From positions 43,392-107,391 of the forward strand of contig NZ_BNAS01000009.1 in NCBI RefSeq assembly GCF_014653785.1: 64,000 nt of DNA, in the 5' to 3' direction. The number at the start of each line of letters is the position of its first letter. Position 1 is the first letter of the stretch. The translations under genes were made by a program, and so were the position numbers. Of the stretch, positions 40,893 to 58,159 are shown piece after piece. A model generated the notes under the pieces. It was given only the letters and a program-made list of their open reading frames with translations. It was not told the origin of the DNA and ran no database searches. Source of the stretch: Promicromonospora soli (GTDB taxonomy: Bacteria > Actinomycetota > Actinomycetes > Actinomycetales > Cellulomonadaceae).

Positions 40893-40975
40893 TAAGCACG
40901 GCAAGGCCCATCCGGGCCTCGCCCACGACGACGGGCCTGCCGAGGACGGCGGGGCCGGATGACAAGGGAGTCACG

Positions 40976-42907: not shown

Positions 42908-44367
42908 CCAGCACCCGCGAGTCCGACCTGCTCGCCGCCGTCCCCGACGGGCTCCTCATCGGCGGCCGGTGGCGGCCTGCCTCGTCGGGGGCCACGCTCA
43001 CGGTCGACGACCCGTCGACCGGCAGGACCATCAAGACCATCGCCGATGCCGGTGCGGACGACGGCATGGCCGCGCTCGACGCCGCGGTCGCCGCCGCGGC
43101 CCAGTGGGCGGCGACGCCTGCCCGGGACCGCGGGGAGATCCTCCGCCGCGCGTTCGACCTCCTGCAGGAGCGCAGCGAGGACGTCGCGCTCCTGATGACC
43201 CTCGAGATGGGCAAGCCGCTCGCGGAGGCGCGCGGCGAGGTGAAGTACGGCGGCGAGTTCCTGCGCTGGTTCGCCGAGGAAGCGGTCCGGGTCACCGGCC
43301 GCTACGGGCCGAACCCCGAGGGCACGGGGCGCATGATCGTCACCCAGCACCCCGTCGGACCCTGCTTCCTCATCACCCCGTGGAACTTTCCCCTCGCCAT
43401 GGCCACGCGCAAGATCGCGCCGGCCCTGGCGGCGGGCTGCACCGTCGTGATCAAGCCCGCAGCCCTGACCCCGCTGACCACCCTGTACTTCGCGCGGCTG
43501 CTGCAGGACGCCGGCCTGCCCGACGGCGTGGTCAACGTGATCACCACCTCCAGCTCCTCCGCCGTCTCCGGACCGATCATCGCCGACCCCCGGCTGCGCA
43601 AGCTGTCCTTCACCGGCTCGACACCGGTGGGCCAGCGGCTGCTGGAGCAGGCCGCGCCAGGTGTGCTGCGTACGTCGATGGAGCTGGGCGGCAACGCCCC
43701 CTTCGTGGTCTTCGACGACGCCGACCTGGACCGGGCCGTCGAGGGCGCCCTCGCGGCGAAGTTCCGCAACATCGGGCAGGCGTGCACCGCCGCGAACCGC
43801 TTCATAGTGCACCGGTCGGTCGCCGACGAGTTCGCCCGGCGGGTCACGGCTGCGGTCGACGACTTCGTCATCGGACGCGGCACCGAGCCGGACGTGACCA
43901 TCGGCCCGCTGGTGGACGCCAAGGCTGTCGCGAAGGCGGAGGCCCTCGTCAAGGACGCGGTCGCCCGGGGCGCCGAGCTCACCACCGGCGGCTCGCGCGT
44001 CGACCGGCCGGGGACCTTCTTCGAGCCGACGGTCCTCACCGGGGTCGCGCCCGGGAGCGACATCCTGCGGGAGGAGATCTTCGGCCCGGTGCTCGCGATC
44101 GCCGCGTTCGACACCGAGGACGAGGCGGTAGCCCTCGCCAACAACACCGAGTACGGGCTCGTCTCGTACGTCTACACCGAGAGCCTCTCGCGTGGCCAGC
44201 GCATGATCGACCGCCTGGAGACCGGGATGATGGGCCTCAACGTCGGGGTCGTCTCCAATGCCGCGGCCCCGTTCGGCGGGTGGAAGATGTCCGGCCTCGG
44301 CCGCGAGGGCGGCGCCGAGGGGATCCACGAGTACCTCCAGACCAAGTACACGCTCACCCCGGCGTGA
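42904..44367 (+). CDS. gabD: Succinate-semialdehyde dehydrogenase
   Basis: A 487-residue aldehyde dehydrogenase of the GabD type. TPWNFPLAMATRKIAPALAA binds cofactor, the catalytic Glu is in SMELGGNAPFVVFDDAD, and the catalytic Cys is in NIGQACTAANRFIVH. It overlaps the hydroxylase gene by 4 bp. Succinic semialdehyde is the product of HpaI, so this enzyme would finish the route to succinate; the operon context supports that choice over other aldehydes. Confidence 0.9.
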   Translation: MTSTRESDLLAAVPDGLLIGGRWRPASSGATLTVDDPSTGRTIKTIADAGADDGMAALDAAVAAAAQWAATPARDRGEILRRAFDLLQERSEDVALLMTLEMGKPLAEARGEVKYGGEFLRWFAEEAVRVTGRYGPNPEGTGRMIVTQHPVGPCFLITPWNFPLAMATRKIAPALAAGCTVVIKPAALTPLTTLYFARLLQDAGLPDGVVNVITTSSSSAVSGPIIADPRLRKLSFTGSTPVGQRLLEQAAPGVLRTSMELGGNAPFVVFDDADLDRAVEGALAAKFRNIGQACTAANRFIVHRSVADEFARRVTAAVDDFVIGRGTEPDVTIGPLVDAKAVAKAEALVKDAVARGAELTTGGSRVDRPGTFFEPTVLTGVAPGSDILREEIFGPVLAIAAFDTEDEAVALANNTEYGLVSYVYTESLSRGQRMIDRLETGMMGLNVGVVSNAAAPFGGWKMSGLGREGGAEGIHEYLQTKYTLTPA

Positions 44368-44499
44368 CGGCAGCAGGCTCACGCGGCCCATTGGTGGGGA
44401 CATGCGCGGACAGCACCGTCCCGTGCGCTGGCAGTCAATACGGGGGCTCTCCGCGCTGCCGACAATCGTCGCGAAGCGCGTCACACTACGGAGGGCCCC

Positions 44500-45909
44500 A
44501 TGTACACGTACGACACACTCCTGGCCAAGGTCAGCGCCACTGGCGGCAGGACCCGGGACGTCACCGACCCCGCAACAGGTGAGCTGATCGGGCCCGCCCC
44601 GGTCAACGCCCTTGCCGACCTCGACAGCGCGGTCGCCCGCGCTGTCGAGGCCCAGCCGGCCTGGGCGGCGCGGACGGACGCAGACCGGCGTCAGACGCTC
44701 CTGAAGCTCGCCGACGCCGTCGACGAGTCCGCCGAGGCGCTGGCGCTGATCCTCTCCCGCGAGCAGGGCAAGCCCCTCAACGGGCCGAATGCCCGGTTCG
44801 AGGTGGGTGCGTGCGCGAACTGGCTGCGTGCCACCGCCGCCCTGGACCTGCCGACGCAGACCGTCCTGGACGACGAGTCCGGGCACGCGGAGCTGTCCTA
44901 CCGGCCCGTAGGCACGGTCGGTGTCATCACTCCGTGGAACTGGCCGATGATGATCGCGATCTGGCAGATTGCCCCGTCGCTGCGGATGGGCAACACCGTC
45001 GTCGCCAAGCCGTCGGAGTACACGACCCTGTCCGGCCTGGCCCTGGCAGCGGTGCTCAACGACGTGCTGCCCGCCGGCGTGCTCGAGGTCGTCACGGGCG
45101 CGGGCGACATCGGCGACGCCCTCGTGCGCCGCCCCGAGATCGGCAAGGTCATGTTCACCGGCTCCACGGCAACCGGCTCGAAGATCATCACGGCCTCTGC
45201 GGGCAACATCACCCGCCTCACGCTCGAGCTCGGCGGCAACGACGCCGGCATCGTGCTGCCCGACGTCGACCCCGCCGCGATCGCCGAGGACCTGTTCTGG
45301 GGCGCGTTCCTCAACACCGGCCAGACCTGCGCCGCGCTGAAGCGCCTGTACGTGCACGACGACGTCTACGACGCCGTCGTGCAGGCCCTTGCGGAGCTCG
45401 CCGCCAAGATGCCGATGGGCGTGGGCACCGACGAGGCCAACGTGCTGGGTCCGCTGCAGAACGAGATGCAGTTCGACATCGTGGACGCCCTCGTCGAGGA
45501 GGCGAAGGCGCGTGGCGCCCGCGTCGTGCTCGGCGGCGACCCCGACCGCGACGGTGCCGGGTACTTCTATCCCACGACCCTCGTCGCCGACATCGACAAC
45601 GACGCCGCGCTGGTGCAGGAGGAGCAGTTCGGGCCGGCCCTGCCGATCGTCCGGTTCAGCGACGTCGAGGAGGCGGTCGCCGCTGCGAACGGCATCGACG
45701 CCGGTCTGGGCGCCTCGGTGTGGTCCGCCGACCGTGACGCGGCCGTCGCCGTCGCGAGCCGCCTGCAGGCGGGGACCGTCTGGATCAACAGCCACGGCGG
45801 CGTGCACCCGTTCGTGCCGTTCGGCGGTGCCAAGCGCTCCGGCTACGGCCTCGAGTTCGGTGTCGAGGGCCTCAAGTCCGTCGCCGTGCCGCAGGTGATC
45901 AACGGCTGA
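44500..45909 (+). CDS. Aldehyde dehydrogenase, likely arylaldehyde-type
   Basis: A 469-residue NAD(P)-dependent aldehyde dehydrogenase. TPWNWPMMIAIWQIAPSL, catalytic Glu in LELGGNDAGIVLPD and catalytic Cys in NTGQTCAALKRLYVHDD. It belongs to a different branch from gabD next door. It is followed by a MoaF-like gene, a zinc alcohol dehydrogenase and an AraC regulator, so its aldehyde substrate is probably made in that module; an aryl-acetaldehyde or benzaldehyde would link to homoprotocatechuate degradation. A 20-bp hairpin follows its stop. Confidence 0.87.
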   Translation: MYTYDTLLAKVSATGGRTRDVTDPATGELIGPAPVNALADLDSAVARAVEAQPAWAARTDADRRQTLLKLADAVDESAEALALILSREQGKPLNGPNARFEVGACANWLRATAALDLPTQTVLDDESGHAELSYRPVGTVGVITPWNWPMMIAIWQIAPSLRMGNTVVAKPSEYTTLSGLALAAVLNDVLPAGVLEVVTGAGDIGDALVRRPEIGKVMFTGSTATGSKIITASAGNITRLTLELGGNDAGIVLPDVDPAAIAEDLFWGAFLNTGQTCAALKRLYVHDDVYDAVVQALAELAAKMPMGVGTDEANVLGPLQNEMQFDIVDALVEEAKARGARVVLGGDPDRDGAGYFYPTTLVADIDNDAALVQEEQFGPALPIVRFSDVEEAVAAANGIDAGLGASVWSADRDAAVAVASRLQAGTVWINSHGGVHPFVPFGGAKRSGYGLEFGVEGLKSVAVPQVING

Positions 45910-45928
45910 CCGGTGGGGCCGACCTCGT

Positions 45929-45970
45929 TGGTCGAGCCTGTCGAGACCTGGGTCTCGACAGGCTCGACCA
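45929..45970. terminator. 20-bp perfect hairpin between convergent genes
   Basis: Arms 45929-45948 and 45951-45970 (TGGTCGAGCCTGTCGAGACC and its complement) pair perfectly over 20 bp with a 2-nt loop. The TGGTCGAGC/GCTCGACCA sequence is one I know as a dispersed palindrome in several Micrococcales genomes; no second copy is visible here. Confidence 0.8.
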
Positions 45971-45977
45971 CCGCGAG

Positions 45978-46808
45978 TCAGACGGGCTGCACGTCCGGGT
46001 AGCGGACGGCGCCGAGCGGGTAGATGTGCCCGCCCGCCCGCCGGTGGTCGGCGCTCCCCTCGGCGTTGATGCCGAGGAAGATGCCGGTGGTCCGCAGCTC
46101 GTAGCCGAGGTCGTGCAGCCAGACGCTGGCGACGGGGATCACGAACTCGCGGAAGCAGAACAGGTAGAGGCCGTCGGCGAACTTCCACAGCGTCGACAGG
46201 TCGACGTCACCATGACCGCGCTGCTCGCCCTGGAGGCACTGCCACGCGTAGCGCTCCGAGCTGAGGTAGACGTGCTCGTACAGGTGCGACGGGCTGTATC
46301 GGTAGACGTTGCGCATGCCGACCAGGTCGCGCGTGGGGCCCGGCCTGGCCCCCGTCACCACGATCCCCGCCACCTCGCCGGCGGCGAAGGTCTGGCCCAC
46401 CTGGGGCACTCCCTCGGTCTTCTCGGGGGCGATGACGGAGTGGGCGAGCAGCGCACGCCCGGTGGTCCGGGACCAGACGACGGTCAACGCCTCACCGTCG
46501 CGCGAGGCGAACGGCAGGTTGACGAAGACGACGTCGTCCCGCACCCGCACCGCGTCGTACGGGTCGACGGTGCCGTCGGCCGCGCTGAGCAGCTGCGCCG
46601 ACGTCCAGCGCACGGTGGCGGCGTCGAGGAACCGGAGCCTCAGCTCCGTGCCGCCGTCGAACCTGAGCTCGACCGTCTGTCCCGTCAGGTCGGCGCCCGG
46701 AAGGCGGTAGGCGTCGATCCCGGCGGCGAAGTCGTCGTAGGTCTTCCACTGCGACTGGTCGGCGGCGTCGACGCGCACGCCGACCTCGACTCGCTGCGAC
46801 TGGGTCAT
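45978..46808 (-). CDS. MoaF-like protein (lipocalin-type fold)
   Basis: A 276-residue protein of the MoaF family, with N-terminal (TYDDFAAGIDAYRLPG) and C-terminal halves. YSPSHLYEHVYLSSERYAWQ and GHGDVDLSTLWKFADGLYLF are characteristic. MoaF was first described in the monoamine (tyramine) regulon of Klebsiella; the biochemical role is unclear and no cofactor motif is visible. Start: ATG at 46808 with AGGAG upstream. The frame remains open upstream across the alcohol dehydrogenase gene, but only this part carries family sequence. Confidence 0.75.
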   Translation of the reverse strand: MTQSQRVEVGVRVDAADQSQWKTYDDFAAGIDAYRLPGADLTGQTVELRFDGGTELRLRFLDAATVRWTSAQLLSAADGTVDPYDAVRVRDDVVFVNLPFASRDGEALTVVWSRTTGRALLAHSVIAPEKTEGVPQVGQTFAAGEVAGIVVTGARPGPTRDLVGMRNVYRYSPSHLYEHVYLSSERYAWQCLQGEQRGHGDVDLSTLWKFADGLYLFCFREFVIPVASVWLHDLGYELRTTGIFLGINAEGSADHRRAGGHIYPLGAVRYPDVQPV

Positions 46809-46838
46809 GATGCTCCTGACGTGGTGGTTTGCAATGCT

Positions 46839-46874
46839 GGTCAAGCTGCCGGTCAAGCTGCGGGTCAGGGCGCC
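46839..46874. repeat. Three tandem 12-bp units between the MoaF-like and alcohol dehydrogenase genes
   Basis: GGTCAAGCTGCC, GGTCAAGCTGCG and GGTCAGGGCGCC follow each other at 46839, 46851 and 46863. The third is diverged. It is outside both genes, in the 5' leader of the MoaF-like gene. Confidence 0.7.
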
Positions 46875-46876
46875 GC

Positions 46877-47986
46877 TCATGGCGACGGCGGGACCAGGAC
46901 CGCCTTGATCAGTCCGTCGGTGCGCTCGTGCACGGCCGCGAACGCCCGCTCGACGTCGGCGAGTTGGTAGACGTGCGTGACGAGCGACGCGAACGGGAAC
47001 CGGCCCTGGGCCAGCAGGGCGAGTGCGCGCTCGTAGCCGCCCGCGGCGAGGAACGACGGCAGGATGTCGATCTCCCGCGTGAGCAGGTAGTCGTCGGACG
47101 GGACGGACAGGGCCGGCCCCGAGCCGCACGCACCGGCCAGGACCACCCGGCCGCCGCGACGGACGATCCGGATCGCGTCGAGCTGTGCGTCGACCGAGCC
47201 GGCCGACTCGATCACGACGTCGGGGCCGCCAGGGATACGCTCGCGGATCGCCGGGACGAGCCGATGGCCCCGCTCGGCGACGGTCTCGGTGGCACCGAAG
47301 GCGCGGGCCAGGGCAAGACGCCCGGTGCGCCCGCCGACCACTACGACCTCGCTCGCACCCGCGGCCGAGGCGGCGGCTGCGGCGAGGAGGCCGATGGGTC
47401 CGGGCCCGATGACGACGACCTTGTCGCCGAGGCCTACGCGGCCGCGCTCGACGGCGCGGACCGCGACGGCGAGCGGCTCGACGAGCACGGCCGTGTCGAG
47501 GTCGAGCCCGTCCGGGATGCGGTGGACGACGCCGTCGCGGGGCACGACCAGGTGGGTGGCGTACCCGCCCGCGAACGGCAGGGTCGTGCGGGGTATGTTC
47601 ACGCCCAGCTGCCGGCCGGGGCCAGGATGACGCACGGGGTCGTCGAGCTCGCACAGGTTGTGGCGACCCTCGCGGCACCGGTCGCAGCGGTGGCAGGGCA
47701 CGAGCATCTCGACGGCGACGGGCTCGCCCACCCCGATCCCCCGGTCGTCCTCGGGGCCGACGGCGTCGACCACGCCCACGAACTCATGCCCGGGCACCAG
47801 GGGGAACGGGTCGCCGATGTGCCCGTCGAGCAGGTGCAGGTCGGTGGCGCACACGCCGACGCGCGCGATCCGTACGACGAGCTCGCCCGGCCCGGGCTCG
47901 GGGACGGCGGACCGCTCCAGCGTCACGACGCCCTTCTGGGGGAAGACCACCTGGAGGCCGCCGTCGCCCTCGTTCTTGCGCGTCAT
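46877..47986 (-). CDS. Zinc-dependent alcohol dehydrogenase (MDR)
   Basis: A 369-residue medium-chain dehydrogenase. Catalytic zinc residues are in GVCATDLHLLDGH and VPGHEFVGVV; the structural zinc Cys set CHRCDRCREGRHNLC is complete; the Rossmann motif is VIGPGPIGLLAAAAAS. Substrate class is polyol/aryl alcohol type. It sits between the MoaF-like gene and the AraC regulator on the same strand. With the nearby aldehyde dehydrogenase it could oxidise an alcohol to an acid. Confidence 0.88.
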   Translation of the reverse strand: MTRKNEGDGGLQVVFPQKGVVTLERSAVPEPGPGELVVRIARVGVCATDLHLLDGHIGDPFPLVPGHEFVGVVDAVGPEDDRGIGVGEPVAVEMLVPCHRCDRCREGRHNLCELDDPVRHPGPGRQLGVNIPRTTLPFAGGYATHLVVPRDGVVHRIPDGLDLDTAVLVEPLAVAVRAVERGRVGLGDKVVVIGPGPIGLLAAAAASAAGASEVVVVGGRTGRLALARAFGATETVAERGHRLVPAIRERIPGGPDVVIESAGSVDAQLDAIRIVRRGGRVVLAGACGSGPALSVPSDDYLLTREIDILPSFLAAGGYERALALLAQGRFPFASLVTHVYQLADVERAFAAVHERTDGLIKAVLVPPSP

Positions 47987-48105
47987 CGCGCCTCCTCAAC
48001 CGTCGTCGTACCGATCGTCGCCGAACGCCGGCGGCTGAGGCTTGCTCGTGCGCGCGCAGCCGTTGTGCGCTCGCGCAGGTGTGCGGCGCGGCGGCCGCGC
48101 GGCCG

Positions 48106-49065
48106 CTAGGCGACCCGGGCGCGGAACTCCGACGGCGTCTCGCCGTAGGCCGCCTTGAAGGTGCGCGAGAAGTGCGGGGCGTCGGCGAACGACCAGCGCG
48201 ACGCGATCGCCGTCACCGTCGCGCCCGCGAGCGCGGGGTCGGCGAGGTCGGTGCGGCAGCGTTCGAGGCGTCGGGTGCGGATGTAGGAGGAGACCGAGAT
48301 CCCCGCGTGGTGGAAGAGCGCGTGCAGGTAGCGGACGGAGATGTAGTGCGCCTCGGCGATCGCGGTCGGGGAGAGCGCCGGGTCGCCCAGCCGGTCCTCG
48401 ATGTAGGAGTAGATAGCGTCCTGCAGCTGGTCCGCGGGCACTGCCCGGTCCTCGCCGAGCTGGTCGCGCAGCAGGATGGTGACCAGGTCCACGGCGTTGC
48501 GGGCGAGCCGCCATCCGGTCGAGGCGTTGACGAGGTGGAGGCGGCCGGCGAGCTGCTCCAGCACGGAGCTGACCATCTCGCCCAGGGAGTCGTCGCTGCC
48601 GAGCGCCGTGGCGGTGAGGCGGGCGACGCGGTCGTCGGACAGGTCGACGAGCCGCTTGGGGAACATGGCCACGATGGTGCGCATGCGGTCGTCGAACACG
48701 AGGGTGTACGGCCTGGTCGTGTCGTAGACGGCGACGTCGCCGGGGCGCAGGACGACGTCGTGGCCGTCCTGGCAGATGTAGGCGCTGCCCTCGAGCATGA
48801 GGCTCACCTTGTACGCCGGCTCGTTCGTGCTCTCGCCGACCAGGTTGCGGGTGCGTTCCACGACGTGCGGCACGGCCGCGACCTCGACGAGGTCGAAGTC
48901 CCGCAGGGACGCCGCGCGGACCGCGGCATGGAAGTCGTGCGGGCGCTGGCTCGACACGCGCAGCGGCACGAACGACCGGTCGACCGTGTGCTGGAACTCG
49001 GCGAACGACCCGACTCGCTGGAGCTGGGAAACCGCGCCGAGCGGGGGCGCGTACATGGAAGACAT
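48106..49065 (-). CDS. AraC-family regulator with AraC-binding-like sensor domain
   Basis: A 319-residue regulator. The N-terminal cupin-like domain (YKVSLMLEGSAYICQDGHD, VLRPGDVAVYDTTRPYTL) is of the class found in FeaR-type activators; the C-terminal double HTH is AEAHYISVRYLHALFHHAG and IASRWSFADAPHFSRTFKAA. FeaR controls phenylethylamine/tyramine oxidation in enterics, so control of the surrounding aldehyde dehydrogenase, MoaF-like and transporter genes is plausible. Divergent from the LIV-type transporter genes. Confidence 0.87.
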   Translation of the reverse strand: MSSMYAPPLGAVSQLQRVGSFAEFQHTVDRSFVPLRVSSQRPHDFHAAVRAASLRDFDLVEVAAVPHVVERTRNLVGESTNEPAYKVSLMLEGSAYICQDGHDVVLRPGDVAVYDTTRPYTLVFDDRMRTIVAMFPKRLVDLSDDRVARLTATALGSDDSLGEMVSSVLEQLAGRLHLVNASTGWRLARNAVDLVTILLRDQLGEDRAVPADQLQDAIYSYIEDRLGDPALSPTAIAEAHYISVRYLHALFHHAGISVSSYIRTRRLERCRTDLADPALAGATVTAIASRWSFADAPHFSRTFKAAYGETPSEFRARVA

Positions 49066-49292
49066 CTCTCACCTCCGGGCGGGGCCCATCCACGCCGATG
49101 CGGCCCCGGTTGCGGCTGATCGTAGCCCTGTACTCCGGGCGTTGGTACCTCCGTCCAGCCGTTCACCCCCGCCGTGCACGGAACGACAACCGCTCTTCGC
49201 GCCGGTTCAATCCGCGGGCCTGCCCGTTCCGCTTGCCTGTCTCCTGGCAGGGCGTGCATCCATGTCTGCCCCCAGTACGAAGGAGTGCTGCA

Positions 49293-50600
49293 ATGAATCG
49301 CATCCTCAGGGCGACAGCTGCCCTCGGTGTCGGAGCGCTGGTCGTCACACTGTCGGCCTGTGTCCCGGAGAGCGACCCCGGAACCATCCAGGGCGCTCCG
49401 TCGGCGGCCGCGGACGACCTCAAGTGCGGGCTCGGCACCGGCGAGCAGGCCGCCGGCGAGCCCATCAAGGTGGCCGCCGTCGCCACGGCGTCGGGCGGCG
49501 TCGACTTCTCGTCGTCGCCGAACTCGGCGAAGGCCTATTTCGACTGCGTCAACGACAACGGCGGCATCAACGGCCGGCCGATCGAGTACGAGTTCGGCGA
49601 CGACGCCCTGGACCCGACCAAGACCGCGCAGCTCGCCGCCGGTTACGCCTCCGACGAGTCCGTCGTCGCGCTGGTCGGCGACGCGACCTTCGTCGGCTGC
49701 GACGTGGCCAACGTCGAGTACAAGAAGGCGGGTCTGTACTCGATCACCGGCGTCGGCGTGCCGCAGGCCTGCTTCGAGTCCTCGAACATCGCGCCGGTCA
49801 ACGCCGGCCCGCGAACCTCGGCGCTGGCCGTGCTGCAGTACTTCGAGCGGCAGGGCCAGGCCGACACGTTCTTCGCCGTCGGCCTCAACACTCGCGGCAA
49901 CGGCGACTGGGCCGCCGACGGTATCGAGAAGTACACCGCGGAGGCGGGCATCGACCTGGTCGGCAACGTGCTTTCGGACCCGGCGGAGAGCAACTACCTG
50001 CCGCTGGTCAGCCAGATCAAGCAGGCCGGTCCCACGAGCCTCGTCATCGTCGACCCGGCGCCCATCACGGCGTCGATCCTCGCGGCCGCCGAGCAGCAGG
50101 ACGCCAAGGGCGACATCCAGTGGGCCTGCACGGCCTCCTGCTACGACGCCCAGTTCGGCGAGCAGATCGGCGACTACTGGGAGGGCTTCGTCTCCAACTC
50201 CGAGCTCGCGCTCGTGACCGCCGACAGCAAGGACGCGAACCAGTGGCGCGCCGTCATGGACGAGTACGCGGACGCCGACGCGCCGCGCGACACGTTCAGC
50301 CAGGCCGGCTTCCTCGCGGCGAAGATCTTCGTCGACACGCTGCTCCCGCTCGACGCCGACACCCTTGACCGCGAGACCGTGTCGGAGGCCGTGCTGGGTG
50401 TGAAGGGCTACGAGTCCGACCTGCTCTGCGCCCCCTGGTACTACGGCGAGGCCGACGAGCACCACGCCAACCACGCGACGCGCACGGCCGGGATCGAGGC
50501 CGGCGCCTACGTCGAGCTCGAGGGCTGCCAGGACGTCACGGACCCCGACATGGCCGGGATCCTCGAGCGGGAGCAGTCCGAGGGACTGCTCAACAAGTAG
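49293..50600 (+). CDS. Branched-chain amino acid-type ABC substrate-binding lipoprotein
   Basis: A 435-residue secreted protein of the LivK/peripla_BP_6 type. The signal peptide ends at the lipobox VTLSAC (Cys about 23). The mature part has FDCVNDNGGINGRPIEYEFG, the family motif, then two alpha/beta lobes. It should bind the imported compound outside the membrane. GAAGGAG lies 7 nt before the ATG. It heads a five-gene transporter operon. Aromatic compounds are frequent ligands for catabolic LIV-type systems. Confidence 0.9.
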   Translation: MNRILRATAALGVGALVVTLSACVPESDPGTIQGAPSAAADDLKCGLGTGEQAAGEPIKVAAVATASGGVDFSSSPNSAKAYFDCVNDNGGINGRPIEYEFGDDALDPTKTAQLAAGYASDESVVALVGDATFVGCDVANVEYKKAGLYSITGVGVPQACFESSNIAPVNAGPRTSALAVLQYFERQGQADTFFAVGLNTRGNGDWAADGIEKYTAEAGIDLVGNVLSDPAESNYLPLVSQIKQAGPTSLVIVDPAPITASILAAAEQQDAKGDIQWACTASCYDAQFGEQIGDYWEGFVSNSELALVTADSKDANQWRAVMDEYADADAPRDTFSQAGFLAAKIFVDTLLPLDADTLDRETVSEAVLGVKGYESDLLCAPWYYGEADEHHANHATRTAGIEAGAYVELEGCQDVTDPDMAGILEREQSEGLLNK

Positions 50601-50613
50601 GGCGGGCCACGAC

Positions 50614-51486
50614 GTGAATCTGCTTCCCTTCGTTGTCGCCGGGCTTGTCATCGGTTCGGTGTACGCCCTGTCCGGAGTCGGGGTGCTCGTGTTGTACCGC
50701 ACGACGGGCGTCCTGAACTTCGCTCACGGAGCCGTCGGCGGCATGGCGGCGCTGCTGGTGTGGCAGATGGTCGAGCTGCGGATGCAGCCCCCGGTCGCGA
50801 TCGCCCTTGGCGTCGCGGCCGGGGCGGCGATCGCCCTCCTCTTCGGGCTGGTCGCCGGGCCGTTCCTGGCCCGGGTCGACCAGCTCCGGAAGGCGATAGC
50901 GACGCTCGGGCTCGCCCTCGCCCTGCTCGGCCTGATGCTGTTCGTCTGGAACGACAAGGCCCGCACGATCCGGCTCGAGTCGAGCCGCATCTCGTTCGAC
51001 GTCGCCGGGGCGCGGGTCAACGTCACCCAGCTCGTCTGCCTTGGCCTCGCGCTGCTCGTCGTCGTCGGCACGCTGCTCGCGCTGCGCTACACGTCGACGG
51101 GGACATCGATGCGGGCGCTCGCGAGCGACCGCGAGCTCGCCGCGGTCGTCGGCACCAACGTGCGGCTCGTGGAGAACACGGCCTGGGCCATCTCGGGCGC
51201 GGTCGCCGGCGTCTCCGGCATCCTGCTGGCCGACCAGACGCGGCTGGAGCCCGCCTTCCTCACCTTCCTCATCATCCCGGAGCTGGCTGCCGTGGTCATC
51301 GGTCGTTTCGTCTCGCTCTGGCTCACCCTCGTCGGCGGCCTCGCCGTCGGCGTCGGTCAGTCGCTCGTCTCCGCCTGGCCCACGGTCAGCGCCTTCAGCA
51401 CAGCGGTGCCGTTCGTCGTCGCGACGATCGTCATCCTCGTCGCCGCACGGCGGCGGGTCGTCACGGTAAGGGTGGTCCGCACATGA
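50614..51486 (+). CDS. livH: LIV-type ABC permease (LivH)
   Basis: A 290-residue permease with eight or so helices. GLVIGSVYALSGVGVLVLYR and TTGVLNFAHGAVGGMAALLV are the classic LivH start, and STGTSMRALASDRELAAVVG the coupling segment. GTG start, 13 nt after the binding-protein gene. It pairs with LivM to form the channel. Confidence 0.92.
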   Translation: MNLLPFVVAGLVIGSVYALSGVGVLVLYRTTGVLNFAHGAVGGMAALLVWQMVELRMQPPVAIALGVAAGAAIALLFGLVAGPFLARVDQLRKAIATLGLALALLGLMLFVWNDKARTIRLESSRISFDVAGARVNVTQLVCLGLALLVVVGTLLALRYTSTGTSMRALASDRELAAVVGTNVRLVENTAWAISGAVAGVSGILLADQTRLEPAFLTFLIIPELAAVVIGRFVSLWLTLVGGLAVGVGQSLVSAWPTVSAFSTAVPFVVATIVILVAARRRVVTVRVVRT

Positions 51487-52511
51487 GCCAGGTCTTCCTC
51501 GCCCGGGCCGACGTGCGCGGCGCACTCGTCGGCCTCGTTCTCGGCCTGGCGCTCGCGCTCGGCCTGCCGGCCCTGCCCGGCGTCGGCGCGGGGCTCTCGC
51601 TCCGTACCCTCACGGTGTGCGCGATCTACGCGCTCGCCGCCGCCGGCGTCGGCGTGCTGTACGGCCGGCTCGGCCTCGTGTCGATCATGCAGATCGGCCT
51701 GGTCGCCGTCGGCGGCTGGGTCACCCTGCGGATCTACCACGCCACCCACCTGCCGTTCGAGGTGGTCATGGTCCTTGCGGCCCTGGTCACCGCCGTCGTC
51801 GGCGTGCTCGTGGGCCTGCCGGCCCTGCGGCTTTCTGGCCTCAGCCTCGCGATCGTCACCCTCATGGTCGCGGGAGCGCTGGAGGTGCTCGTCACCTACG
51901 CCGGCTTCCCCAACGGCGGCGACGGGTTCCTCGGACGGGCGTCGGGCGGGACCCTCGCGGCCATCATGCCGCGGCCCGCGCTGGGACAGTCCGACGACGA
52001 CTTCTTCCGCTACGTCGGCGTTGCGGTGGTCGTCGTCCTGGCGCTGCTGCGGTGGCTGCTCATGGTGCGGCCCGGCCGTACCTGGGCCGCCATCCGGCAG
52101 GGCGAGGCGGGCGCGGTGTCCCTCGGCGTCAACACCGTCGCTCACCGCCTGTTCGCCCTTGCGGTGACGAGCGCGGTCACGGGCGTCGCGGGCGCGCTGC
52201 TCGCGGCCAGCTCCGGGATCCTCGACCCCGCGTCGTTCAAGGCGCAGCAGTCGGTCCTGCTCTTCGCGACCGTGCTGATCGGCGGGGTCTTCTCCCTGCT
52301 GGGCGCCGTCATCGGCGGTCTGCTCTTCTACGGCCTGCCGCAGCTGCTCAGCACTGTCGGCGTCGACGGCAACCTCGTGTTCGTCGTCCTCGGCCTCGGG
52401 CTGGTGCAGGCCATCACGACCACCCAGGCCGGCATCGCCGGCCAGCTCGGCGGACTGTGGCGGCGGCTACGACAACCGCGGCCGCGCCGTCCACGGGAGG
52501 TGACGGCATGA
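51483..52511 (+). CDS. livM: LIV-type ABC permease (LivM)
   Basis: A 342-residue permease. Eight to nine helices, with LTVCAIYALAAAGVGVLYGR, LPALRLSGLSLAIVTLMVAG and the coupling helix RTWAAIRQGEAGAVSLGVN. It overlaps livH by 4 bp (ATGA). A basic C-terminal tail (RQPRPRRPREVTA) ends the protein. Confidence 0.92.
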   Translation: MSQVFLARADVRGALVGLVLGLALALGLPALPGVGAGLSLRTLTVCAIYALAAAGVGVLYGRLGLVSIMQIGLVAVGGWVTLRIYHATHLPFEVVMVLAALVTAVVGVLVGLPALRLSGLSLAIVTLMVAGALEVLVTYAGFPNGGDGFLGRASGGTLAAIMPRPALGQSDDDFFRYVGVAVVVVLALLRWLLMVRPGRTWAAIRQGEAGAVSLGVNTVAHRLFALAVTSAVTGVAGALLAASSGILDPASFKAQQSVLLFATVLIGGVFSLLGAVIGGLLFYGLPQLLSTVGVDGNLVFVVLGLGLVQAITTTQAGIAGQLGGLWRRLRQPRPRRPREVTA

Positions 52512-53221
52512 GCCGGCTCACCCTGTCCGGGATCACCGTGCGCTACGGCGGCGTGACGCCGCTGGACGACGTCTCGCTGGCGTTCGAGTCCGGCGTCTGC
52601 GGGGTCATCGGCCCCAACGGCGCCGGCAAGACGACGACGTTCAACGTGCTGTCCGGGTTCGCGCTCCCGGTGGCCGGGTCGGTCGACCTCGACGGCGACG
52701 ACCTGCTGGCGGTCCCGGCGCACCGCCGCGCGCGCTGGGGACTGCGCCGCTCGTTCCAGCAGGAGCAGGTCGTGCGCACCCTCACCGCGCGCGAGAACGT
52801 GCTCCTCGCCGCCGAGCACAGCGGCTCCCCCGCCGCCGACGTCGACCGCGCGCTCGACTATGTGGGCCTAGACCGGCCGCACCGGCTGGGCGCGGAGCTG
52901 ACGATGTTCGAGCGGCGGCTGGTCGACATCGCGTCCTGCGTCGTCGGGGCGCCGCGCCTCGTGCTGCTCGACGAGCCCGCCGCGGGGCTCGACCCGGCCG
53001 AGTCCGAGCAGCTGCTCGGGCTGATCACGCGGATCCCCGAGGAGGTGGGCGCGCTGGTGCTGCTCGTGGACCACGACATGGACCTGGTGCGCGCGGCGTG
53101 CGGCACGGTGGCGGTGCTCGACTTCGGCCGCCGCATCGCGGCTGGCCCGACGCTCCAGGTGCTGGGCTCCCCCGAGGTGCGCAAGGCGTACCTCGGCATC
53201 GACGAGGAGGTGACGGCGTGA
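52508..53221 (+). CDS. livG: LIV-type ABC ATPase (LivG) with degenerate signature motif
   Basis: A 237-residue ATPase. Walker A (IGPNGAGKTTTFNVLSG), Q-loop region (RRSFQQEQVVRTLT), Walker B (LVLLDEPAAGLD) and H-loop (LLVDHDMDLV) are intact. The ABC signature, usually LSYGQ in LivG, reads LTMFERRLVDIA and lacks the conserved Gly. This ATPase may therefore be impaired at one of the two ATP sites, as in some asymmetric heterodimers. It overlaps livM and livF by 4 bp each. Confidence 0.9.
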   Translation: MSRLTLSGITVRYGGVTPLDDVSLAFESGVCGVIGPNGAGKTTTFNVLSGFALPVAGSVDLDGDDLLAVPAHRRARWGLRRSFQQEQVVRTLTARENVLLAAEHSGSPAADVDRALDYVGLDRPHRLGAELTMFERRLVDIASCVVGAPRLVLLDEPAAGLDPAESEQLLGLITRIPEEVGALVLLVDHDMDLVRAACGTVAVLDFGRRIAAGPTLQVLGSPEVRKAYLGIDEEVTA

Positions 53222-53934
53222 CCGCCCTGGAGATCCGCGACCTGCACATCCGCCGCGGCGGGATCGAGGTCGTGCACGGCATCGACCTGACCGTCACCGC
53301 GGGCGAGATCACCGCGCTGCTCGGCGCGAACGGGGCCGGCAAGTCGTCCACGGTGCTGGCGGTCGCCGGGATCGTGCGCGACACCAGCGGCTCGATCACG
53401 GCCGACGGCAGCGGTATCCGCGGGCTCGCCCCCAACAAGGTGCGGCGCGCGGGAATCGCGACGATGCAGGAGGGGCACCGCGTTTTCAGCGACATCTCGG
53501 TCGCCGACAACCTCGCGATCGCCGCACTGCTGCTGCCGCGCGCCGAACGCGCCGAGGCCGTCGAGTCGATGCTCGACCTGTTCCCCGAGATCCACGGCTT
53601 CGCCGACCGGCCGGCGGGCTCGCTATCCGGCGGCCAGCAGCAGATGCTCGCCCTCGCCACGGCGCTCGCCGCCCGCCCCAGGGTCCTGGTGATCGACGAG
53701 ATGTCGCTCGGGCTCGCGCCGCTCGTCGTGGCGCGCCTGGTGCCCGCGCTGCGGGCCGTCGCCGAGCAGGGCGTCGGGGTGCTGCTCATCGAGCAGTTCA
53801 CCAGCGTCGCCCTGGAGCTGGCGACCAGCGTCACGGTGCTCGCGCAGGGCCTCGTGACCCTGCGCGCGCCGGCGAAGGAGCTACGGGACCACCCCGAACG
53901 ACTGGCCGCGGCGTACCGCCTCACCGAGCAGTGA
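53218..53934 (+). CDS. livF: LIV-type ABC ATPase (LivF)
   Basis: A 238-residue ATPase with all motifs: Walker A ALLGANGAGKSSTVLAVAG, signature SLSGGQQQMLALATAL, Walker B RVLVIDEMSLGLAP and H-loop-like region VGVLLIEQFTSVALEL. The position of the H-loop His is taken by Gln (EQFTS), common in LivF. GTG start overlaps livG by 4 bp. Completes the importer. Confidence 0.92.
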   Translation: MTALEIRDLHIRRGGIEVVHGIDLTVTAGEITALLGANGAGKSSTVLAVAGIVRDTSGSITADGSGIRGLAPNKVRRAGIATMQEGHRVFSDISVADNLAIAALLLPRAERAEAVESMLDLFPEIHGFADRPAGSLSGGQQQMLALATALAARPRVLVIDEMSLGLAPLVVARLVPALRAVAEQGVGVLLIEQFTSVALELATSVTVLAQGLVTLRAPAKELRDHPERLAAAYRLTEQ

Positions 53935-54020
53935 CCCCACCGAGCAGCAACCCCACCGAAGCAACCACCGAGCACGACATGGACGGCGTACACGCCGCCG
54001 TCCGGAGGGAGAATACAACC

Positions 54021-55517
54021 ATGGCCGATTACGACGTCGTCGTCGTGGGAGCAGGGACGGCGGGGAGCGTCGTCGCTCGCCGTCTGGCGGACGCCGGTCG
54101 CCGAGTGGCGATCCTCGAGGCGGGCGGGTCCAACCGCGACGACATGATCCAGGACGTGGGCCGCCTGAACCAGCTGTGGCACGGCGAGCGCGACTGGGGG
54201 TATCACACGGTGCCCCAGCAGCACGCCGCCGGGCGCCGGATCCACCTGCCGCGCGGGCGCGTGCTCGGCGGCTCCCACTCGCTCAACGCCGCGATCTGGG
54301 TGCGCTGCGCCCCCGAGGACTTCGACGGCTGGGCGGCCGACGGCTGCCCCGGCTGGTCGTGGGCGGACGTCGAGCCGGTGTACCGGCGCATCGAGCAGTG
54401 GCACGGCACGCACGACGCGCGCCGGGGCTCCGACGGGCCGCTGCCGGTCGCACCCAACGAGCCGCTCCACCCGGTGCAGCAGGCGATCATCGACGCGGCT
54501 GTGCAGTCCGGCCTCCCCCTCAACGCGGACTACAACGTGGACGAGCTCGACGGCGTCTCGGTCCAGCAGGTCACCGTCGCCGACGGCGATCGCGTCACGA
54601 CGTGGGACGCCTACGCGCAGCCGGCCGTCGACGAGGGCCGCCTCACGGTGCTCACCGGCGTCGTCGTGCGCCGGGTGCGGATCGAGGGCGGCCGCGCGAC
54701 AGGTGTCGAGCTGGCGGACGGCCGTCTGCTCACCGCCGACCAGGTGGTGCTCTCGGCGGGCGCCGAGGGCAGCGCGGAGACCCTGCTGCGCAGCGGGGTC
54801 GGCCCCGCGGAACACCTCGCCGCCCTGGGCATCGACGTCGTCGCGGACCTGCCGGTCGGCGAGAACCTGCACGACCACTACCTCGTCCCGGTCATCTTCT
54901 CGACCGACCGCGAGGTGGACCCGCCGGCCCCGCACCGCAGCGTGACCCAGACGCACTGGTTCTGGCGCTCCGACCCGTCGCTCCCGGTGCCGGACACGCA
55001 GCCGATCAACTTCGCCGTACCGATGCTGGAGCCGGACATGGAGCCGATCCCGTGGGGCTTCTCCCTCATGGCCGGCATCGTCACCACGCGGTCGCGCGGC
55101 ACCGTGCGGCTGGCGAGCGCCGACCCGGCCGACGGCATCCTCATCGACCCGCAGGTCCTTCAGGACGAGCGTGACGTCACCTCGATGCTCGCCTCCGTGC
55201 GGCAGTGCCTGGAGGTCGGGGCGCAGGAGGCGCTCGCCACGGACTGGAAGGCGCGGCCGCACTACCCGTCGGGAGACCTGAGCGACGAGGCGCTCGTCGA
55301 GTACATCCGGCAGCGCGTGATCACCTACCACCACCAGGTGGGCACGTGCCGCATGGGCTCGGACGAACGCTCCGTCGTGGACCCCACGCTGCGGGTGCGG
55401 GGAGTCGAGGGGCTCATGGTGGCCGACGCATCCGTGATGCCGACGATCACCACGGGCAACACGAACGCGCCGTCGGCCATGATCGGTGAGCGGGCGGCCG
55501 AGTTCCTGCTCTCCTGA
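54021..55517 (+). CDS. GMC-family FAD-dependent oxidoreductase
   Basis: A 498-residue GMC oxidoreductase. FAD motif VVVVGAGTAGSVVARRLADA, GMC motif LPRGRVLGGSHSLNAAIWVR, and near the end TYHHQVGTCRMGSD with the active-site His, then NTNAPSAMIGERAAEF. It is somewhat shorter than choline dehydrogenases. It oxidises a primary alcohol, aryl alcohol or polyol with FAD. GGAGGGAG precedes the ATG at 54021. It lies 87 nt after the transporter operon and just before a ThDP enzyme, so the three probably act on one imported compound. Confidence 0.9.
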   Translation: MADYDVVVVGAGTAGSVVARRLADAGRRVAILEAGGSNRDDMIQDVGRLNQLWHGERDWGYHTVPQQHAAGRRIHLPRGRVLGGSHSLNAAIWVRCAPEDFDGWAADGCPGWSWADVEPVYRRIEQWHGTHDARRGSDGPLPVAPNEPLHPVQQAIIDAAVQSGLPLNADYNVDELDGVSVQQVTVADGDRVTTWDAYAQPAVDEGRLTVLTGVVVRRVRIEGGRATGVELADGRLLTADQVVLSAGAEGSAETLLRSGVGPAEHLAALGIDVVADLPVGENLHDHYLVPVIFSTDREVDPPAPHRSVTQTHWFWRSDPSLPVPDTQPINFAVPMLEPDMEPIPWGFSLMAGIVTTRSRGTVRLASADPADGILIDPQVLQDERDVTSMLASVRQCLEVGAQEALATDWKARPHYPSGDLSDEALVEYIRQRVITYHHQVGTCRMGSDERSVVDPTLRVRGVEGLMVADASVMPTITTGNTNAPSAMIGERAAEFLLS

Positions 55518-55681
55518 GCTGAGCAAGCTTGCGGTGGGCACGCGGATATACTCCAATCGTCAAGGCGGACGAGAACCGCCTGCGCTCGAAAAAGGGGCGC
55601 GCGACGGGCTCGGAGCCGAGCCCGCACGGGACACATACGGACCGCACCACTCATCCGTCACTGTTCTCCCTGGAGGCCCTC

Positions 55682-57346
55682 GTGCCCACCGTGTCCGCAC
55701 ACGTCGCCCGTACTCTCGCCCGGCACATCGACCACGTCTTCGGCGTCATGGGCAACGGCAACGCCTGGTTCCTCGACGACCTCACGCGCTCGACGACCGC
55801 CCGGTTCACCGCCGTCCGGCACGAGGCCGGCGGCGTGGTCGCCGCCGACGCCCACTTCCGCGCGTCGGGCCGCATCGCCGCCGCCACCGCCACCTACGGC
55901 GCGGGCTTCACCAACGCGCTCACCGCGCTCGCCGAGGCCGCGGCGGCCCGGGTGCCGCTGGTGCTGCTGGCGGGCGACGAGCCGACGTCGGGCCCCCGCC
56001 CGTGGGACGTCGACCAGATAGCGCTCGCGGCCGCCGTCGGCGCCCGGACCTACACGGTGGGCCGTGCGGACGCTGCGGCCACGTGCGTCATCGCCATCGA
56101 GCACTCCCTGACCTACCGGGTCCCCGTGGTGCTGGCGATCCCCTACGACGTCGCGGCCCTCGAGGCCGGCCCGGTCCCGGACGCCCCTGAGCCGGCGCTG
56201 CCCCGGCCGATGGCTCCGGCGGGGCCGTTCGACGCGGCCGCCATCCGTGACCTCGCCCGGCACCTCGCCGACGCCGAGCGGCCGCTGCTGCTCGCGGGCC
56301 GCGGCGCCTGGCTCGCCGGCGCGGGCGAGGCGCTCGGCGAGCTCGCGGACGCGACGGGGGCGCTGACGACGACCACGGCGCTGGGCCGCGGCATCTTCCC
56401 CGACGGCCACTACGACCTCGGCGTAGCGGGCGGCTTCGGCGCCGAGGGGGCGATGGCGCTGGTGCGGGAAGCCGACGTCGCCGTCGTGCTCGGCGCGTCG
56501 CTCAACCAGTTCACCATGCGTTTCGGCGAGCTGTTCGCGCCAGGGACGCGCGTGGTCCAGGTGGACATCGCGCCCGCCGCGACGCACCGGCACGTCGGCG
56601 GCTTCATCCGGGGCGACGCCGCGCTCGTGGCCCGCGCTCTCGTGGACGAGCTGCACGCCATCGGGGCGGCACCGTCCGGGTGGCGCAAGTCGGTGGACGT
56701 CGCCGCGGCCCGCACCTACGAGACCGGCCCGGCGGACGGGATGGCCCCCGACGGGCGGCTCGACCCGCGCGCCGTCGCGCACCGCCTCGCCGGCCTGCTG
56801 CCCGCCGACCGGGTGGTCGTCTCCGACGGCGGGCACTTCATCGGCTGGGCGAACATGTTCTGGCCCGTCGCCTCCCCCGACCGGATGATGATGGTCGGCA
56901 CCGCCTACCAGTCCATCGGGCTCGGCTTCCCCAGCATCGCCGGCGCTGCCGCGGCACGCCCGGACGCCGCCGTCGTGCTCACCACGGGCGACGGCGGCGG
57001 GCTCATGGCCCTCGCCGACCTCGAGACCGCGGTGCGCACCGCCCGCGGGCGCGGCATCGCCGTCGTATGGAACGACGCCGCCTACGGCGCCGAGCTGCAC
57101 GTGTACGGGCGGCAGGGAATCACCGAGGAGCCGATGCTCATCCCCGAGACGGACTTCGCCGCCATCGCCACCGCGATCGGTGCCGAGGGCGTGGTCGTGC
57201 GCTCGCTCGCCGACCTGGACCGCGTGGCGGCGTGGACCGCCGAGCCCGTCACCGACCGCCGCTTCCTGCTGCTCGACTGCCGGGTCTCGGCTTCCGTCGT
57301 CGCCCCCTACCAGGAAGAGATCCTGCGGGTGAATCGCACCCGCTAG
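55682..57346 (+). CDS. ThDP-dependent decarboxylase/synthase-type enzyme
   Basis: A 554-residue thiamine diphosphate enzyme of the acetolactate synthase/benzoylformate decarboxylase superfamily. The catalytic Glu E48 is in AVRHEAGGVVAA. The middle domain (about 195-330) is FAD/DHS-like. The C-terminal ThDP-Mg motif is TTGDGGGLMALADLETA through VVWNDAAYG. GTG start at 55682 with TGGAGG upstream; earlier starts are less likely. Whether it decarboxylates an aryl-2-oxo acid, such as (hydroxy)phenylpyruvate or phenylglyoxylate, is an inference from the aldehyde dehydrogenases in the cluster. Confidence 0.87.
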   Translation: MPTVSAHVARTLARHIDHVFGVMGNGNAWFLDDLTRSTTARFTAVRHEAGGVVAADAHFRASGRIAAATATYGAGFTNALTALAEAAAARVPLVLLAGDEPTSGPRPWDVDQIALAAAVGARTYTVGRADAAATCVIAIEHSLTYRVPVVLAIPYDVAALEAGPVPDAPEPALPRPMAPAGPFDAAAIRDLARHLADAERPLLLAGRGAWLAGAGEALGELADATGALTTTTALGRGIFPDGHYDLGVAGGFGAEGAMALVREADVAVVLGASLNQFTMRFGELFAPGTRVVQVDIAPAATHRHVGGFIRGDAALVARALVDELHAIGAAPSGWRKSVDVAAARTYETGPADGMAPDGRLDPRAVAHRLAGLLPADRVVVSDGGHFIGWANMFWPVASPDRMMMVGTAYQSIGLGFPSIAGAAAARPDAAVVLTTGDGGGLMALADLETAVRTARGRGIAVVWNDAAYGAELHVYGRQGITEEPMLIPETDFAAIATAIGAEGVVVRSLADLDRVAAWTAEPVTDRRFLLLDCRVSASVVAPYQEEILRVNRTR

Positions 57347-57490: not shown

Positions 57491-58159
57491 ATGCACATCT
57501 CGGCCTTCCCGCACGAACTGGCCCATCGTGCCGCCACAGTGCTGGGTAGCAAGCTCGAGGCCAGCATCATCCTGGGTGAGCGCGGGTTCGCGGTACGCGC
57601 GGGCAGCAGCACCGACGCCGCCGGACGGTGCGACCGCGCCGAGTCCCTCGCCGACGACGGACCGTGCGTCGACGCCATCGAAAAGCGGACGGTCCAGGTC
57701 GTGCCGGTGATCGCCGAGACCGAGAGGTGGGAAGCCTGGCGCGACCAGTCGCTCCGTGAGGGCTTCGTCTCCGCGCTGGCGGTCCCCGCCTCTGTCAACG
57801 CGGACATCGCCGTCGCAATAAACCTGTACTCACGTACTCCGGACCCGTGGACCCGAGAGCTCGTCACAGCGGCTGACGGCTACGCGCAGCTCGCAGCCTC
57901 CATGGTGCAGCTGCACCTGAAGCTCGCTGAGTTCGAGGACGCCACGGCGGGCCTGTACCACCAGATGTCCGATCTGAGCGCGACCGAGCGTGCAGTCGGG
58001 GCCATCATGTACGCCAACGACTGCAGCGATCTCGAGGCGAGACGAATCCTCGACTCCGCATCCCGTAACCGCAACGTGTCGCAACGCGAGGTGGCCGAAA
58101 CCATCCTGCGTACCCTGGTCATGAGCGAGCCCCGGCCTGAAGACGGCACTGCCACCTGA
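57491..58159 (+). CDS. GAF-ANTAR transcription antiterminator-type regulator
   Basis: A 222-residue regulator. A GAF domain (about 5-140) with AESLADDGPCVDAIEKRTVQ is followed by an ANTAR RNA-binding domain (QMSDLSATERAVGAIMYAND, then NVSQREVAETILRTL). ANTAR proteins bind two-hairpin RNA motifs and prevent termination; GAF supplies the signal input. The ATG at 57491 lacks a strong ribosome site; a TAGTCT hexamer at about 57386 could be the -10. No target hairpin is evident in the flanking genes. Confidence 0.85.
   Translation: MHISAFPHELAHRAATVLGSKLEASIILGERGFAVRAGSSTDAAGRCDRAESLADDGPCVDAIEKRTVQVVPVIAETERWEAWRDQSLREGFVSALAVPASVNADIAVAINLYSRTPDPWTRELVTAADGYAQLAASMVQLHLKLAEFEDATAGLYHQMSDLSATERAVGAIMYANDCSDLEARRILDSASRNRNVSQREVAETILRTLVMSEPRPEDGTAT

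Follow-up and report, generated by a model that had tools for sequence, protein, structure and literature searches.

The locus considered here raises the question of whether a continuous row of genes is also a single functional module. In a 64,000-nt stretch of Promicromonospora soli DNA (the window; NZ_BNAS01000009.1, positions 43,392-107,391 of the forward strand, assembly GCF_014653785.1; GC content 71.8%), which comes from a genome of 5.38 Mb (coded G000), genes for an aldehyde dehydrogenase (ALDH), a MoaF family protein, a zinc alcohol dehydrogenase (Zn-ADH), a FeaR-like AraC regulator, a five-gene LIV-type importer, a GMC flavoprotein and a thiamine diphosphate (ThDP) enzyme stand next to genes of the homoprotocatechuate (hpa) pathway. 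A preliminary description of this DNA read them as one side-chain oxidation module. All the genes it named are present with open frames, and homoprotocatechuate genes do adjoin the block, with HpaD, HpaE and HpaH above their cut-offs. The unity of the module was not upheld: the block joins an insert (about 44378-55544) to an older ThDP gene. We hypothesize, with a probability of roughly 0.6, that two functional units meet here, an old core for tyrosine breakdown and a transferable cassette for arylethanols. Gene content, insertion, linkage and co-occurrence were read from the sequence, and all substrates and reactions are inferred.

The core consists of the following genes, of which phhy and aldA (40883-44367) sit between the hpa genes and the span of the preliminary description.

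34312-35106, minus strand: hpaI, 4-hydroxy-2-oxoheptanedioate aldolase-like protein (Pfam HpcH_HpaI; best match TIGR02311 with 318.7 bits, yet below the cut-off of 368.8)
35103-35888, minus strand: hpaH, 2-oxohept-4-ene-1,7-dioate hydratase (TIGR02312, 361.7 bits, above the cut-off of 351.5)
35900-37045, minus strand: hpaD, homoprotocatechuate 2,3-dioxygenase (TIGR02295, 436.6 bits, above the cut-off of 321.4)
37048-38575, minus strand: hpaE (TIGR02299, 658.9 bits, above the cut-off of 638.35)
38565-39281, minus strand, start approximate: regulator of the hpa core with Pfam GntR and FCD domains, kept in the cluster of relatives
39293-40816, minus strand: HpaG-like protein, a fusion of an FAA-hydrolase domain (Pfam FAA_hydrolase, 167.3 bits) with a C-terminal RraA-like domain (Pfam, 114.6 bits)
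40883-42907, plus strand: phhy, single-component flavin adenine dinucleotide (FAD) hydroxylase, candidate 4-hydroxyphenylacetate 3-hydroxylase (NF006144, 1004.9 bits, above the cut-off of 560)
42904-44367, plus strand: aldA, ALDH of the succinate-semialdehyde or arylacetaldehyde type (best NCBIfam match the succinate-semialdehyde dehydrogenase model TIGR01780, 560.4 bits, below the cut-off of 646.35)
55682-57346, plus strand: ThDP enzyme, candidate 4-hydroxyphenylpyruvate decarboxylase or oxidase (Pfam TPP_enzyme N, M and C)

A nearly full-length match to the HpaG-RraA fusion was seen again in the hpa clusters of congeners.

Twelve other genomes of the same genus were searched (G001-G012, of which G003 is Promicromonospora sp. 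AC04), and one stretch was taken round each ThDP gene (for G009, round one gene piece). All 12 encode the ThDP enzyme at 86-93% identity. In G009 the gene is split between two contigs, which carry residues 1-102 and 383-554, and hpaI-H-D-E stand beside one piece. In nine of the 12 congeners (G001, G003-G007 and G010-G012), phhy and hpa genes are near the ThDP gene and the importer-GMC cassette is absent. In G008, phhy/hpa and the ThDP gene share one contig, with some 15 kb of a different module between them, and the G002 contig starts 1.26 kb before the ThDP gene. The GMC gene of the cassette was not found in 11 of the 12 congeners, where the next best matches were 38-40% identical or shorter. 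The aldA gene adjoins phhy in five congeners (G001, G003, G004, G008, G012), and in AC04 aldA and the ThDP gene are only 180 bp apart, with no insert. The cassette of AC04 is located on another contig in the order aldB, SnoaL, MoaF, ADH, an extra gene, AraC, substrate-binding protein (SBP), four importer genes and GMC; its ten proteins in common with the window are 86-94% identical, and the window lacks SnoaL and the extra gene. No ThDP gene was found in the cassette stretches of AC04 and Antribacter soli. Because the core occurs without the cassette in congeners and the AC04 site is free of an insert, the ThDP enzyme is, judged by gene order, a gene of the older hpa core and not of the cassette, the rest being the insert. 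Its inclusion in the module by the preliminary description is therefore not supported, as each occurs without the other. Base composition gives no sign of transfer (GC 0.721 in the insert vs 0.714 and 0.717). In G006 a large protease-like gene, named from sequence, lies between phhy and the ThDP gene (L022 6692-9667), and in G008 one lies near the ThDP gene (L023 8228-11131), which is another sign that the place between phhy and the ThDP gene accepts inserts.

The cassette comprises the following features.

44378-55544 (about), no strand: whole insert of about 11.2 kb, delimited by blastn of the uninterrupted G003 site against both window flanks
44500-45909, plus strand: aldB, cassette ALDH, candidate arylacetaldehyde dehydrogenase (Pfam Aldedh, 454.5 bits)
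45978-46808, minus strand: moaF, MoaF family protein (Pfam MoaF_C 131.5 and MoaF 79.2 bits, both above cut-off)
46877-47986, minus strand: Zn-ADH (Pfam ADH_N and ADH_zinc_N)
48106-49065, minus strand: FeaR-like AraC regulator (best NCBIfam match NF007243 FeaR, 156.2 bits, below the cut-off of 199)
49171-49217, plus strand: 47-bp block between regulator and importer, candidate operator or promoter (alignment of three cassette copies)
49293-50600, plus strand: LIV-type substrate-binding lipoprotein, the SBP (Peripla_BP_6, 145.9 bits)
50614-51486, plus strand: LivH-like permease (BPD_transp_2)
51483-52511, plus strand: LivM-like permease (BPD_transp_2)
52508-53221, plus strand: LivG-like ATPase (ABC_tran)
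53218-53934, plus strand: LivF-like ATPase (ABC_tran)
53979-55517, plus strand: GMC flavoprotein, candidate arylethanol oxidase (GMC_oxred_N and _C)

In the proposed core, an aminotransferase would turn tyrosine into 4-hydroxyphenylpyruvate, which the ThDP enzyme would decarboxylate, possibly oxidatively, to 4-hydroxyphenylacetaldehyde or 4-hydroxyphenylacetate. The MobA-like FAD hydroxylase encoded by phhy would then form homoprotocatechuate, and HpaD-E-G-H-I would cleave it to pyruvate and succinate semialdehyde. The cassette, presumably transferable and inserted between aldA and the ThDP gene, would bring a second entry: the LIV importer would take in an arylethanol (tyrosol, hydroxytyrosol or 2-phenylethanol being the likeliest), the GMC flavoenzyme would oxidise it to the arylacetaldehyde, and aldB would oxidise this to the arylacetate that enters the core, all under the control of the FeaR-like activator. 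No role is assigned to MoaF or Zn-ADH in this scheme. The best solved relative of the GMC protein is 8rpg, named alcohol oxidase (300.9 bits); the protein falls below the cut-offs for choline dehydrogenase (380.4 of 605 and 323.7 of 732.1 bits) and for mycofactocin MftG (301.0 of 387.45). The SBP had no solved relative at E 0.001, and the best one for MoaF is the uncharacterised 4q51. The label of a FeaR-type regulator stands as far as the best match goes and fails at the cut-off; the same model gives 148.2 and 161.0 bits, also below 199, for two regulators that adjoin amine oxidases in relatives.

An order-wide survey covered 297 genomes of the order of the window organism. The GMC clade, defined by proteins of at least 410 bits (three further matches at 320-332 bits were excluded), was present in 22 genomes from 12 genera, and hpaD was found in 20 of these 22 vs 79 of the 297 overall (Fisher 6e-11, a value that overstates independence because the genomes are related). 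Stretches of 13-20 kb round all 22 genes, window included, were compared with stretches round 15 GMC genes outside the clade, controls that are not random, as 14 of them adjoin an ALDH with 35-39% identity to HpaE and probably represent a single type. Among the 22 loci, aldB or a homologue (at least 55% identity) was present in 16, a FeaR-like AraC regulator in 15, a copper amine oxidase in 11, a permease in 10, an hpa-core gene in seven, an SBP in three and MoaF in two, and each of them was absent from all 15 controls. G125 has, in one row, a permease, amine oxidase, aldB, GMC, FeaR-like regulator, phhy, the ThDP gene, a transporter and aldA, and G103 has GMC, aldB, phhy, the ThDP gene, the same transporter and hpa genes together. 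In G257, from another family, a FeaR-like regulator, SnoaL, MoaF (59%), an SBP with importer and GMC lie inside the hpa cluster, although this SBP and importer are only 27-42% identical to those of the window; a copper amine oxidase and HpaB follow further on. These partners (aldB, FeaR-like regulator, amine oxidase and hpa genes) across lineages favour a common role of the GMC clade in making arylacetates from arylethyl compounds. The proposal of a side-chain oxidation module that feeds homoprotocatechuate and is linked to aromatic amines or alcohols is thus borne out for the GMC enzyme, whose relatives adjoin aldB homologues, a FeaR-like regulator and a copper amine oxidase, and lie inside the hpa cluster in several lineages.

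Relatives of the cassette show what else occupies the same place. The slot of G008 holds a FeaR-like regulator (45% identical to that of the window), a copper amine oxidase above its Pfam cut-off, a MoaF homologue, an ALDH 65% identical to aldB, an amino-acid-permease-family transporter, an amidohydrolase-like gene and the large protease-like gene, the last two named from sequence with no profile scan. Its permease is 90% identical to the permease scanned in G025, a member of another genus, in which phhy-aldA, a FeaR-like regulator, copper amine oxidase, permease, aldB, SBP, importer and GMC stand in one row with no ADH match. The closest solved structure to the G025 amine oxidase is phenylethylamine oxidase (AGAO-like, 633.9 bits). 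A contig scan for further cassettes used two exact 7-residue patterns, so it reaches near relatives only; it gave two loci, AC04 and Antribacter soli, and in the latter a copper amine oxidase and a permease come after the cassette. Since a copper amine oxidase joins the same slot or the GMC-aldB pair in relatives, amine and alcohol would enter via the same aldehyde. The 47-bp block upstream of the SBP is nearly invariant in three cassette copies, whereas much of the spacer diverges. A search of the window and eleven loci for its 20-base core, allowing 5 mismatches at most, gave beyond the three known copies only a 5-mismatch match in L088.

The evidence for the core comes from co-occurrence over the same 297 genomes. 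The hpaD gene was found in 79 of them (a count that omits six genomes with weaker matches of 211-224 bits), phhy in 83 (partial in G265), and both in 78. The ThDP orthologue is present in 55 genomes; it accompanies hpaD in 53 of 79 genomes, from 23 genera, vs two of the 218 genomes without hpaD. On the same contig and within 30 kb, phhy and hpaD were found in 57 of 78 genomes and the ThDP gene and hpaD in 28 of 53, figures that are minima owing to contig ends. In a class-wide set of 193 genomes, nine had ThDP orthologues, and all nine belong to the order. By passing the NF006144 cut-off, phhy is placed in the MobA-like/phenol 2-monooxygenase subfamily, and its best solved relative is the 3-hydroxybenzoate hydroxylase 2dkh (628.7 bits). 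The two-component hydroxylase HpaB (PF03241) has no match in the genome of the window, and it is above cut-off in 13 genomes of the order, of which 10 also have hpaD. G251, alone among the hpaD genomes in lacking phhy, carries HpaB within its cluster and close to the ThDP gene, which looks like the replacement of one 4-hydroxyphenylacetate hydroxylase by another.

The substrate of the ThDP enzyme is suggested by genes that accompany it elsewhere. In 25 genomes the ThDP gene has neither hpaD nor phhy within 20 kb, and 22 of these (G186, G213 and G247 left out) together with G021 make up a set of 23 loci away from hpa. A HisC-like aminotransferase is near the ThDP gene in nine of the 23 by clustering and in eight by tblastn at half coverage, vs none of 67 other loci longer than 7 kb. 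In L037, L134, L135, L136 and L140 it is adjacent to the ThDP gene or one gene off, and in L130, L141, L145 and L148, all from one genus, it is about 6 kb away and shares 42-44% identity with the L037 protein over the aligned part; the aminotransferase loci span two bacterial families. The L037 protein belongs to the PRK03321 subfamily, named histidinol-phosphate transaminase (477.6 bits), and, as the only one of these aminotransferases compared with solved structures, matched best 4r2n, named putative phenylalanine aminotransferase (324.6 bits vs 147 for the next). An AsnC-type regulator and an amino acid permease stand alongside the aminotransferase and the ThDP gene in L037, L134, L135 and L136. 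Furthermore, 4-hydroxyphenylpyruvate dioxygenase (HPPD) was not found above cut-off in any of the 79 hpaD genomes. Together, the aminotransferase neighbours and the missing HPPD matches above cut-off point to 4-hydroxyphenylpyruvate as the likely substrate. Decarboxylation is favoured by L140, where an ALDH (56% identity to aldA), the aminotransferase and the ThDP gene come one after another; the enzyme may also be an oxidase, because the clusters of G005, G010 and G014 have no aldA homologue beside the ThDP gene. Thirteen ThDP orthologues that were compared share 121 invariant positions, including H47-E48, in which we take E48 to be the catalytic glutamate, and G436-D437-G438, presumably the ThDP motif. 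A single-sequence AlphaFold2 model of the enzyme had a mean pLDDT (predicted local distance difference test) of 34.8 and was not used. A pathway built from the structure codes 8rpf and 8rpg (oxidases) and 8rph (a ThDP enzyme) was dropped, the papers being on different subjects (aryl-alcohol oxidases and JanthE). Directly downstream of the ThDP gene, a GAF-ANTAR protein (57491-58159), possibly an antitermination regulator, is encoded, which adjoins the ThDP gene in G008 too.

Several observations weigh against the two-unit reading. For the core, the nearest solved relatives of the ThDP enzyme are acetolactate synthases, the ThDP enzyme 8rph and 2-hydroxyacyl-CoA lyases, with pyruvate oxidases lower; 26 of the 79 hpaD genomes have no ThDP orthologue, and the ThDP gene is within 20 kb of hpaD or phhy in only 30 of 55 genomes. 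HPPD-like matches of 58-132 bits, below cut-off, occur in 33 of the 79 hpaD genomes. Nine hpaD genomes hold both phhy and HpaB, and in G231, G257 and G277 HpaB is 3-26 kb from hpaD and phhy is on another contig or 1.3 Mb off; because HpaB and not phhy is near hpaD there, phhy may have another task in these three. For the cassette, the combination of regulator, importer, ADH and GMC was found only in the window, AC04 and Antribacter soli, and in part in G025, and the AC04 copy is far from hpa. Eight of the 22 GMC-clade genomes are from one genus, six loci are without aldB, and G201 and G049 have the clade and lack hpaD; near the GMC gene of G201, G267 and G246 there is none of aldB, amine oxidase and FeaR-like regulator, and the loci of G267 and G246 lack every partner. 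MoaF is full in only the window and AC04 among the four cassette copies, being cut to residues 191-276, the last 86 residues, in Antribacter soli (L088 2887-3144) and to a 38-residue remnant in G025 (L070 8152-8265), and so it seems dispensable in these two copies. Moreover, a second set of MoaF (40%), Zn-ADH (57%) and SnoaL (52%) lies between GH43 and GH31 genes on contig C3 of the window's genome (L073 10352-12961). MoaF-ADH-SnoaL may thus be a unit of its own, and those genes need not concern aromatics. It was MoaF that had led the preliminary description to its reading.

Among the alternatives, the one that survives best concerns the core: the ThDP enzyme might act on another 2-oxo acid or perform carboligation. 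The solved relatives named above agree with this, no indolepyruvate or phenylpyruvate decarboxylase is named among 60 of the 131 solved relatives listed, and the enzyme is below the cut-off of the best 25 of 53 NCBIfam models (for acetolactate synthase TIGR00118, 190.7 bits against 538.35). Co-occurrence with hpaD, the phenylalanine-aminotransferase-like gene in eight of 23 loci away from hpa, four of them with AsnC-type regulator and permease, and the absence of HPPD above cut-off speak for 4-hydroxyphenylpyruvate instead, so that we regard a different substrate as unlikely. Less probable still is a cassette for an aromatic amine or amino alcohol, whose hydroxyl the GMC enzyme would oxidise and whose nitrogen a copper amine oxidase would remove. 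Such an oxidase is present in half of the GMC-clade loci, the cassette has a FeaR-like regulator, and MoaF is said to have been first known from the tyramine regulon. However, the window stretch of the cassette contains no copper amine oxidase, and G049, G103, G130, G132, G192 and G314 have gmc and aldB with no amine oxidase in the stretch examined. A copper amine oxidase gene does exist on another contig of the window's genome (C1:989587-990813, 510.7 bits), possibly for use of tyramine or phenylethylamine. Three points would fit a cassette for a sugar-like or aliphatic alcohol that reached the hpa cluster by chance: the likeness of the Zn-ADH to polyol and threonine dehydrogenases, the relation of the GMC enzyme to choline oxidase among others, and the place of the paralogous MoaF-ADH-SnoaL set between glycoside hydrolase genes. 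The strong enrichment of hpaD in GMC-clade genomes and the hpa-core genes near seven of the 22 loci make this quite improbable. Finally, a single module, with an imported aryl-2-oxo acid decarboxylated by the ThDP enzyme and every enzyme at work in one side-chain pathway, would suit the contiguity in the window and the joint GMC, aldB, phhy and ThDP genes of G125 and G103, but it was rejected as very improbable, since core and cassette are separable in the congeners (nine with the core and no cassette, 11 without its GMC gene) and in AC04 and Antribacter soli, whose examined cassette stretches are free of a ThDP gene. The preliminary description had named separate conservation of its two halves as grounds for refutation, and this was found for the ThDP gene; GMC and aldB still co-locate with hpa or hydroxylase genes in other genomes.

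Beyond the window, the two-unit reading can be extended more tentatively, and we would put this extension at somewhat less than even odds: across the order, the ThDP enzyme would be a 4-hydroxyphenylpyruvate oxidase or decarboxylase and phhy a stand-in for HpaBC, while lineages would plug in cassettes for amines (copper amine oxidase) or alcohols (GMC and LIV importer), so that tyrosine, tyramine and tyrosol would share one pathway. Each protein family and the hpa genes are ordinary here; what is not ordinary is an apparently conserved core for tyrosine, holding two candidate genes for steps about which little is known, together with exchangeable amine or alcohol cassettes. Co-occurrence names one candidate gene for each of these two tyrosine steps, and under the cassette view gene content would predict whether a strain grows on tyrosol or tyramine. 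Passages of PMC2991359 and PMC3534580 cite work that reports tyrosine breakdown via homoprotocatechuate by Gram-positive bacteria, the former citing Sparnins and Chapman 1976 and Blakley 1977. According to a passage of PMC2991359, the genes for two steps, the conversion of 4-hydroxyphenylpyruvate and that of 4-hydroxyphenylacetate, were not located in the cheese strain Arthrobacter arilaitensis. In the main text of PMC3534580, Arthrobacter sp. Rue61a is described as growing on tyrosine as well as 4-hydroxyphenylacetate, and its genome is scored as having both routes; the gene table is in the supplement, where some assignment may exist. A passage of PMC9007349 states that tyrosine degradation via 4-hydroxyphenylpyruvate oxidase was omitted owing to a lack of knowledge. 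In the relevant part of PMC6498646, the homoprotocatechuate cluster of Rhodococcus ruber Chol-4 is drawn with 4-hydroxyphenylacetate 3-monooxygenase and NADH-FMN oxidoreductase, and this strain did not grow on tyrosine. Among the matches listed from the open-licence literature, titles and the starts of abstracts held no assignment of the ThDP or phhy candidate gene and no description of such a cassette, and MoaF did not appear in any title or abstract.

The core comes closest to the hpa/hpc meta-cleavage pathway, with which it has in common HpaD, HpaE and HpaH above their curated cut-offs and the HpaI-like and HpaG-like proteins. It differs by the MobA-like single-component FAD hydroxylase in place of HpaB, by the fusion of the HpaG-like and RraA-like domains, and by the added ThDP gene. 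With the tynA-feaB-feaR system of E. coli and the MoaF-containing monoamine regulon, the cassette has in common a FeaR-like regulator, an ALDH and MoaF, and relatives of the cassette also contain an AGAO-like amine oxidase; the window cassette differs in having a LIV importer, a GMC oxidase and a Zn-ADH, in having no amine oxidase, and in a regulator below the FeaR cut-off. The two bacterial aryl-alcohol oxidases treated in PMC11522167, in a part of which the codes 8rpf and 8rpg occur, belong to the GMC family like the window enzyme, the likeness being one of sequence only. With the known Gram-positive tyrosine route via homoprotocatechuate, as it appears in passages of PMC2991359 and PMC3534580, the core shares the same ring cleavage within the same broad bacterial group.

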